A stretch of DNA of 33,507 bases, from assembly GCA_027062365.1 (NCBI GenBank), contig JAMOTK010000041.1:1-33507 (forward strand), written 5' to 3'. The translations under genes and the position numbers were made by a program. Position 1 is the stretch's first letter. Every line of letters starts with the position of its first letter. This DNA is from Sulfurovum sp. (GTDB lineage Bacteria > Campylobacterota > Campylobacteria > Campylobacterales > Sulfurovaceae). The notes below the pieces were generated by a model. That model worked only from the letters and a program-made list of their open reading frames with translations, did no database searches and was not told where the DNA came from. Of this stretch, positions 32,445 through 33,506 are shown one piece after another.

Positions 32445-32741
32445 CCCAAAAGTTACTATAGGTAAGATTTTATGAGGATATTCTGTTATTAAAAAAGTAT
32501 CTCTATCTATTGTATAATCCTTATCCCACCTCACTATACTCCATTGTGTAACAGTTTTTTTCCTTTAACACCTAAGTTATTACTTGATGCTCCGTTGTGG
32601 TCTGATAGCGTATCATAAAAGGTATAAGTGTAGCTGTCTGTTAGGTTTTCATTACTAAGTGCTAATACGATTAAGTCAATTTTCTTAGTTGGGAAAATTT
32701 GAAACAAAAAATAATTCAAAAGATGAATTTAGATAAATATC
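32445..32741. other. Intergenic stretch between typA and the MarR gene
   Basis: About 300 bp without a supported gene. A 61-codon minus-strand frame (32534-32719) has low-complexity C-terminal residues (DHNGASSNNLGVKGKKLL), no ribosome site before its start, and no recognisable family; it may be the decayed tail of an older gene. Confidence 0.3.
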
Positions 32742-32770
32742 TTGACATTATTACTAATTAGTAGTAATAT
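32742..32770 (+). promoter_or_regulatory. MarR-gene promoter with overlapping palindromic operator
   Basis: TTGACA (32742-32747) and TAATAT (32765-32770) form a -35/-10 pair with a 17-bp spacer. Between them lies ATTACTAATTAGTAGTA (32750-32766), containing the perfect palindrome TACTAATTAGTA. A reverse-complement copy with one mismatch precedes the CDGSH gene at 33260-33276. Confidence 0.7.
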
Positions 32771-32790
32771 ATTATCAAGGAATGAATGAT

Positions 32791-33243
32791 ATGAAAATAA
32801 ACAGACTTAAAAGTTATGGCTCTCGTGCTGATAAAGCTATGACAACTTGGATACAGCTTTTTCGCTCTTTTAATAAAATAAGAGCTAAAGAGTCACTTTA
32901 TATTCAATCATGTGATTTAACCATGAACCAGTTTCAAGTTTTAGAAGTTTTATACCATAGGGGTGATTTGAGTATTGGTGCTATAACCAAACTTACGATG
33001 GGAACACCTGGTAATATTACTGTTGTTGTAAGAAACCTAAAAAGAGATGGTTTAGTTAATTCAGTTCCTGATTCAAAAGATAAAAGGTCTTCGATACTCT
33101 CTATAACCAAAAAGGGAAAAGATATTATCGAGCAGTTGTTTCCACAGCATGCCAAAAATCTACAAAGTTATTTTGAGGTTTTAGATGATGATGAGATGGA
33201 AATTTTATTTAGCTTATTAAGAAAGTTACACAAAGCACAGTAG
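32791..33243 (+). CDS. MarR-family transcriptional regulator
   Basis: 150 residues from the ATG at 32791, for which AAGG lies 10 bp upstream; the ATG at 32782 is only 1 bp from that site. It has the MarR winged-helix fold: helices (TTWIQLFRSFNKI), TMNQFQVLEVLYHRGDLSIGAITK, the recognition helix GTPGNITVVVRNLKRDGLV, and the wing PDSKDKRSSILSITKKGKD with the Asp-x-Arg of the family. It has a single Cys (near residue 42, YIQSCDL), which could sense redox state. Its operator lies between its own -35 and -10, so it should repress itself. The downstream CDGSH gene has the same palindrome. Confidence 0.9.
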   Translation: MKINRLKSYGSRADKAMTTWIQLFRSFNKIRAKESLYIQSCDLTMNQFQVLEVLYHRGDLSIGAITKLTMGTPGNITVVVRNLKRDGLVNSVPDSKDKRSSILSITKKGKDIIEQLFPQHAKNLQSYFEVLDDDEMEILFSLLRKLHKAQ

Positions 33244-33259
33244 CTTTTTTTTAAATATA

Positions 33260-33276
33260 TACTACTAGTTAGTAAT
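33260..33276. promoter_or_regulatory. Second copy of the MarR operator, before the CDGSH gene
   Basis: TACTACTAGTTAGTAAT is the reverse complement of the site at 32750-32766 with one difference. It lies between the MarR stop and the CDGSH start, 14 bp before the latter, so the same regulator probably controls both. Confidence 0.65.
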
Positions 33277-33290
33277 TAAAGGATTATATT

Positions 33291-33506
33291 ATGTCACAAC
33301 CAGTACAAATGAATTTAGAAGCAGGAAAAGAGTATCACTACTGCACATGTGGTAAAAGTAAGGATGGTGTTTTATGTGATGGCTCACATAAAGGGACAGA
33401 TTTTACACCTACAGCATTTAGTGTAAAAGAGAGTAAAGAGTATTATTTATGTTCATGTAAAAAAAGTGCTAATGAGCCTTTTTGCGATGGCACACATACA
33501 AAATAA
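33291..33506 (+). CDS. Two-motif CDGSH iron-sulfur protein
   Basis: 71 residues with two copies of the CDGSH motif: CTCGKSKDGVLCDGSH and CSCKKSANEPFCDGTH. Each has the three Cys and one His that hold a [2Fe-2S] cluster, as in mitoNEET-related proteins, and the double motif is the compact bacterial type. The cluster may serve redox sensing, iron or sulfur handling, or repair. AAGGA lies 7 bp before the ATG. It is probably under the MarR regulator just upstream. The stop TAA is complete at 33504-33506, so the gene is not cut by the window end. Confidence 0.93.
   Translation: MSQPVQMNLEAGKEYHYCTCGKSKDGVLCDGSHKGTDFTPTAFSVKESKEYYLCSCKKSANEPFCDGTHTK

Follow-up and report, generated by a model that had tools for sequence, protein, structure and literature searches.

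The marR-CDGSH locus and its two probable operator sites

The window analyzed in this study, i.e., the whole stretch of 33,507 nucleotides, was the complete contig C41 of a Sulfurovum sp. assembly, which comprises 2,303,416 bases (2.30 Mb) in 77 contigs and is 99.81% complete. A gene for a MarR-family regulator (32791–33243, forward strand) is followed by a gene for a 71-residue CDGSH protein (33291–33506, forward strand), and the contig ends one base past the stop codon of the latter (33507). The open reading frame tool placed the start of marR at 32782, which yields a polypeptide of 153 amino acid residues. The start at 32791 (150 residues) is probably the correct one, because the probable ribosome-binding site AAGGA (32777–32781, forward strand) is placed for it, 9 bp before its ATG while abutting the ATG at 32782, and because most orthologs begin with MK at this position. 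Between a typA-like gene and marR, there is also an open reading frame of 61 codons on the reverse strand (32534–32719). It had no Pfam match and is probably not a gene.

The predicted marR promoter (32742–32770, forward strand) is composed of a -35 hexamer TTGACA (32742–32747), a 17-bp spacer and a -10 hexamer TAATAT (32765–32770). It matches the consensus at 10 of 12 positions, in a promoter scan that overall found no more than shuffled sequences give. Inside its spacer lies operator 1, TACTAATTAGTA (32752–32763), a perfect 12-bp palindrome. Operator 2, TACTAGTTAGTA (33263–33274), lies in the 47 bp that separate the marR stop codon from the CDGSH start codon, where it is followed by AAAGGA (33278–33283, forward strand), the probable ribosome-binding site of the CDGSH gene. 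Both are contained in 17-mers with the consensus TACTACTA(A/G)TTAGTAAT, of which copy 1, TACTACTAATTAGTAAT, is read on the reverse strand at 32750–32766 and copy 2, TACTACTAGTTAGTAAT, on the forward strand at 33260–33276, its end being 14 bp before the ATG at 33291. An initial annotation of this DNA had reported near-identical 17-mers in the marR promoter, between the -35 and -10 elements, and in front of the CDGSH gene. Their positions were exactly as claimed, and the two hexamers bracket 32750–32766. The opposite orientations ascribed to the two copies, however, hold for the flanking bases only, because the 12 bp of the core read (nearly) the same on both strands.

The exact 17-mer was found in the genome at two places, both in the window, and the many unrelated copies that the initial annotation had regarded as contrary to its proposal were not observed. 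With up to three mismatches allowed, the 17-mer had 25 matches and the reversed control pattern 37, which marks the loose matches as background and leaves the strict form as the meaningful one. Similarly, the strict core TACTANNTAGTA (TACTA-NN-TAGTA) occurred at only 2 places in the 2,303,416 bases, again both in the window, while its reversed control occurred at 7 places. Neither window site departs from the core at any of its 10 positions.

Predicted operator sites and gene content in related bacteria

A profile scan of a named genome collection provided 71 related loci with a total of 797,670 bases. According to their record titles, they were mostly from Sulfurimonas, Sulfurovum, Sulfuricurvum, Sulfurospirillum, Arcobacter-type bacteria and other Campylobacterales. 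A few bore no more specific title than "bacterium" or "Proteobacteria", and a single record (L128) was from Eubacteriaceae. In addition, 200 genomes, including that of the window, were searched for MarR homologs with a threshold of E ≤ 1e-10. Matches were found in 18 genomes: the window genome, 14 with close orthologs (54–87% identity) and three with distant homologs only (27–28%). The 71 loci and the 200 genomes overlap, as some assemblies are the same, and related rows are not independent.

The core occurred 132 times in the 71 loci, and 128 of these sites were upstream of or directly after marR. It was present upstream of marR in 68 loci, being missing in L075, L079, and L128, and a second core directly followed marR in 49 loci, the other 22 having no intact second site. 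The remaining four sites were in front of the YceI gene in L075 and L079, in which this gene comes ahead of marR, and, twice, in front of the gene for a CDGSH fusion in L089. As a control, the half-site was permuted to give 29 other palindromes. None of them was found upstream of marR in any locus, they were found downstream in at most 6 of the 71 loci (TTACA), and they had at most 9 sites in all, with a mean of 2.1. Moreover, the operator was inside a -35/-10 spacer of 17 bp (40 loci) or 18 bp (20 loci) in 60 of the 68 loci with the upstream site, as counted by a simple promoter rule that the other 8 failed in one hexamer. Because the core is confined to two places in the assembly and this layout recurs in 68 of the 71 loci, a chance match of the two sites was rejected. 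Thus, the two window sites look like conserved MarR operators, as predicted from the comparison of these loci.

The flanks of the two copies differed. One half is extended, usually on the 3′ side in the promoter copy (TAGTA-N-TAT), where it is merged with the -10 element, and on the 5′ side in the second copy (ATA-N-TACTA). It is therefore probably this asymmetry that the initial annotation had described as opposite orientations. In the 49 loci, the stretch preceding the second operator (33244–33262 in the window) has two well-conserved elements, TTT (-13 to -11) and AAATA (-6 to -2). A consensus scan found no sigma-70 -35/-10 frame at the second site. The second site may be part of an internal promoter whose start point is covered by the operator, or it may serve as a roadblock.

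Two other arrangements were observed. In 11 loci of the Arcobacter type (L070, L085, L088, L092, L093, L096, L099, L102, L104, L106, and L111), a second upstream operator is located 40–44 bp, or about four helical turns, further out, for which cooperative binding is possible. L128, the locus from Eubacteriaceae, has a MarR-pirin pair without the TACTA-NN-TAGTA core. By eye, an inverted repeat, CACTAACTAG...CTAGTTAGTG, is found before its marR, and this arrangement is possibly a Firmicutes version of the regulon.

In the genus Sulfurovum, the sites and MarR were found together. Among the 78 genomes of this genus, including that of the window, the five with a close MarR each carried exactly two TACTARYTAGTA sites. 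No close MarR was found in the other 73, many of which are incomplete. Five of them contained such sites, 7 in all, and the flanks retrieved around these sites, up to 1.5 kb per side, contained no regulon gene. The co-occurrence was significant (Fisher p = 1.2e-5). For the 40 genomes with a completeness of 90% or more and a contamination of 5% or less, sites were present in 5 of 5 with and 3 of 35 without the close MarR (p = 8.5e-5). In the 14 other genomes bearing orthologs, 31 TACTARYTAGTA sites were found versus 18 for the reversed control. Of the 31 sites, 27 adjoined genes encoding MarR, YceI, LigB, FMN reductase, or a YceI-CDGSH pair, and 21 were at marR itself, either before it or in the gap that follows. 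For instance, the gene after marR in G080 encodes LigB, and on other contigs of this genome one site precedes an FMN reductase gene and two precede a YceI-CDGSH pair (L147). In G155, one site lies before a YceI gene far from marR, and in G185 two sites lie at the YceI gene heading the operon that contains marR. The four off-regulon sites were found at genes for a DoxX-family protein (one, G127) and an ADP-ribosylglycohydrolase (two, G185) and inside an open reading frame (one, G155).

Other genes recur in these stretches. Of the 72 stretches formed by the window and the 71 loci, 60 carried a YceI gene and 58 a pirin gene, while 35 encoded LigB, 14 FMN reductase, and 9 CDGSH. These tallies take in everything fetched per stretch and depend on a crude longest-ORF rule that misses some genes, such as those for YceI in L147 and L106 and for LigB in L018. 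The names of the YceI, pirin, LigB, FMN reductase, and CDGSH-type genes were confirmed on examples by Pfam. In the window genome, family searches with positive control genomes for each gave no match for YceI, LigB, or pirin, and a search run without a positive control gave none for FMN reductase. The CDGSH protein may therefore be the remaining output here, although further regulon members could lie past the contig end. The two-gene regulon proposed in the initial annotation may thus hold literally for this genome, because the two sites stand alone in the assembly, but it looks pared down from the larger regulon of the relatives. The other parts of that proposal, namely a shared operator, autoregulation of MarR and control of the CDGSH gene, are supported at the level of sequence comparison.

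The MarR regulator and the CDGSH protein

The MarR domain (PF01047) was matched in the regulator with 43 bits versus a cut-off of 24.6 (E = 4.3e-11). The best PDB profile match was 9qdr (E = 9e-24), which is MhqR of S. aureus (PMC12893000), and the next match had an E value of 4e-17. 9qdr was also the first Foldseek match of the AlphaFold2 model (pLDDT 92.8), with a TM score of 0.85 and 27% identity, and the matches were MarR folds. When VIA-align was used, MhqR was tied within 1 Z with MftR, HpaR, Sco3205, PecS, and others.

Previous results showed that MhqR binds methylbenzoquinone in a pocket with F11, F39, E43, and H111 and without a thiol mechanism (PMC12893000; PMC6798810). With the 9qdr chain numbered at an offset of 3 and the window protein numbered by its 153-residue form, these residues align to W23, F51, E55, and H123, respectively. 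The proteins of the window and 70 of the loci, the truncated one of L078 being left out, were aligned. F51 and E55 were invariant in the 71 proteins and H123 was present in 70, while at the column equivalent to F11 the counts were 38 for W, 14 for V, 16 for I or H together, and one for F. Among the five PDB alignments listed, only MhqR has both E and H at the E55 and H123 columns; the other four lack both. The loop serines of MhqR (SSS), in addition, are replaced here by TPGN. Because F11 is not kept and the loop differs, the ligand may be different from that of MhqR, and the same pocket is described as binding salicylate and urate in other MarR proteins (PMC12893000). We propose, with moderate confidence, that the ligand is aromatic and most likely of the quinone type.

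Comparison with characterized regulators places the window protein close to, but apart from, MhqR. Similar to the window protein with its F51, E55, and H123, the MhqR proteins of S. aureus and B. subtilis (PDB 9qdr and 9smz) possess F39, E43, and H111. MhqR also resembles the window family in having no conserved cysteine and in that its gene heads an operon with a dioxygenase gene. MhqR is reported to control dioxygenase genes, and regulons of the MhqR/QsrR type also include quinone reductases (PMC12893000; PMC6798810). Different from the TACTA-RY-TAGTA sites found here, however, the MhqR operator is given as TATCTCGAA-aTCGAaATA (9-9 bp; PMC6798810), and in S. aureus it is located at -6 to +12 instead of in the -35/-10 spacer. 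YceI, pirin, and CDGSH belong to the regulon described here, unlike that of MhqR, and the identity in the structural alignment is 27%. As the operator differs in sequence and position, the window protein is classed not as MhqR but, at the level of sequence, only as MhqR-like. Quinone reductases and dioxygenases are likewise controlled by YodB, QsrR, and CatR of the MarR/DUF24 type (PMC6798810), but these regulators possess a conserved N-terminal sensing cysteine, which the window family does not, and Pfam matches the latter to MarR-type models. The UrtR group (PecS, MftR, and HucR) has the same MarR fold, a pocket histidine and high structural Z scores. Its members bind urate and, according to PMC12893000, are without the conserved F11, F39, and E43, the last two of which are invariant here.

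The polypeptide encoded by the downstream gene matched zf-CDGSH of Pfam in two stretches (E = 3.8e-17). It contains two motifs, CTCGKSKDGVLCDGSH and CSCKKSANEPFCDGTH, and two [2Fe-2S] sites are predicted, with C18, C20, C29, and H33 and with C54, C56, C65, and H69 as the ligands (3Cys-1His each). Its best solved relative was 3tbn (E = 8.3e-20), i.e., MmCISD, the type 6 protein of Magnetospirillum described with the typing of this family in PMC3174974. Both have the same tandem motifs about 20 residues apart and the same positions of the Cys and His ligands, and the window protein is likewise assigned to type 6 (tandem) from its sequence. It differs in the first motif, in which V replaces the usual proline. 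The human tandem CDGSH protein CISD3/Miner2 (6avj) is similar as well.

CDGSH proteins were matched in 37 of the 200 genomes, own genome included. A tree was built with 35 rows: the window protein, five short CDGSHs of the 71 loci, and 29 sequences fetched out of the 47 that matched in other genomes. Ten of the rows are linked to MarR or the operator, and these clustered in the tree, with 3 label changes versus a mean of 8.9 after shuffling, and none of 500 shuffles was as low. The five rows nearest to the window protein were all linked to the regulon, with moderate to weak support around the window protein. The core was found in 4 of the 29 fetched CDGSH loci (L029, L030, L034, and L036), all from genomes with a close MarR. 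G026, G028, and G072 also possess a close MarR, with their CDGSH genes located elsewhere. Two of these CDGSH loci (L035 and L037) had no core site and were outside the linked rows of the tree, and in G028 no core site was found at the CDGSH gene, both sites being at marR. Of the nine CDGSHs in regulon stretches, three were not of the 71-residue type: those of L090 and L102 are longer and divergent, and that of L089 is a long fusion. The fusion gene, located some 1.7 kb before marR, is preceded by a double operator of its own, and its product appeared by eye to be of the glutamate-synthase type (type 5). Judged from linkage and the tree, CDGSH recurs in the predicted regulon but is found there only occasionally, and the window copy is of the linked kind.

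Proposed regulation and alternative explanations

We propose, with a probability of about 0.6, that marR and the CDGSH gene form an autoregulated MarR regulon that is relieved by an aromatic or quinone ligand. The MarR dimer would act as an autorepressor by binding TACTA-RY-TAGTA in the spacer of its own promoter and blocking RNA polymerase, and the copy between marR and the next gene would also be bound, which would tighten repression of the downstream gene via an internal promoter or a roadblock. A small aromatic compound, most likely quinone- or catechol-like, would enter the pocket around F51, E55, and H123 and release MarR from the DNA without cysteine chemistry, as in MhqR. Detoxification proteins would then be made, which in the relatives would be the ring-cleaving dioxygenase LigB, the quercetinase-like pirin, an FMN/quinone reductase, YceI, and sometimes CDGSH. 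In the window genome, the tandem CDGSH iron-sulfur protein would be the only visible target. Since searches of this genome matched none of YceI, pirin, LigB, and FMN reductase, the connection of this organism to a quinone pathway is indirect.

The initial annotation had suggested redox or nitrosative control through the single cysteine of MarR. MarR sensors with one cysteine exist, such as OhrR, and oxidation or nitrosation of Cys44 could be imagined to release MarR and induce the [2Fe-2S] protein. Cys44 is indeed the only cysteine of the window protein, and four other aligned proteins share this column. The other 66 of the 71 proteins lack Cys44, however, and 54 contain no cysteine at all, yet operator and promoter layout are kept. 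In MhqR, Cys95 was dispensable for both binding and sensing (PMC6798810). What is conserved instead are residues of a probable aromatic/quinone pocket. Because Cys44 is not conserved, a thiol-based sensor of the OhrR, QsrR, or YodB type was rejected, and this explanation is highly improbable. Nor is it likely, though slightly less remote, that the second site is a relic, in which the loss of YceI, LigB, and pirin brought the CDGSH gene beside an operator that now controls nothing. The lack of matches to these proteins and to FMN reductase in the window genome is consistent with such a history, as is G155 (L013), in which marR and a CDGSH gene are adjacent with no core between them. Against it, both window sites have kept their 10 core positions and are placed as in the relatives, and the YceI-CDGSH pair of L147 and the CDGSH fusion of L089 have double operators of their own elsewhere.

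Of greater weight, while still doubtful, is that the same regulon responds to another phenolic or heteroaromatic ligand, such as one of the benzoate, salicylate, urate, or flavonoid type, which is detoxified or consumed. The pocket is common to ligand-binding MarR proteins, as described in PMC12893000; HucR, AbsC, PcaV, HpaR, and BpsR are all structural neighbors of the model, and the loop and F11 positions are unlike those of MhqR. E55 and H123, however, jointly single out MhqR among the five PDB matches listed, and a reductase and a ring-opening dioxygenase are partners in the regulon as they are in MhqR/QsrR regulons (PMC6798810). We therefore prefer a quinone-type ligand. Taken together, the regulon is real and conserved at the level of sequence, with a thiol or NO component being unlikely.

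No description of the regulon or operator was found among the open-licence PMC papers listed, which were judged in part by title, and no open-licence paper was found that joins CDGSH, the MarR family, and an operator, or pirin, YceI, and MarR. An unusually clean operator characterizes the regulon, which was defined here from sequence and recurs in relatives from Sulfurimonas, Sulfurovum, Sulfuricurvum, Sulfurospirillum, and Arcobacter. It places CDGSH proteins under a probable quinone/aromatic sensor. To our knowledge, the role of CDGSH proteins in bacteria is poorly understood. Under quinone stress, the window protein might function in electron transfer or through its predicted Fe-S clusters. 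A further and more speculative suggestion, which we regard as rather unlikely, is that the tandem CDGSH (NEET) protein serves specifically as an effector against quinone stress and that, in this lineage, an MhqR-like regulon has been reduced to one output. If so, one MarR switch and one [2Fe-2S] protein would suffice for a quinone response, and bacterial NEET proteins would have a physiological role in electron transfer to, or protection from, quinones. The two-gene version found here is simple to test.

Finally, two operator positions in other genomes are at genes of different families. In G185, a double operator whose starts are 31 bp apart (L148, 1214–1256) directly precedes the ADP-ribosylglycohydrolase gene, a possible extra member of the regulon. 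In G127, a single operator (L151, 1297–1308) is located before the gene for the DoxX-family membrane protein.
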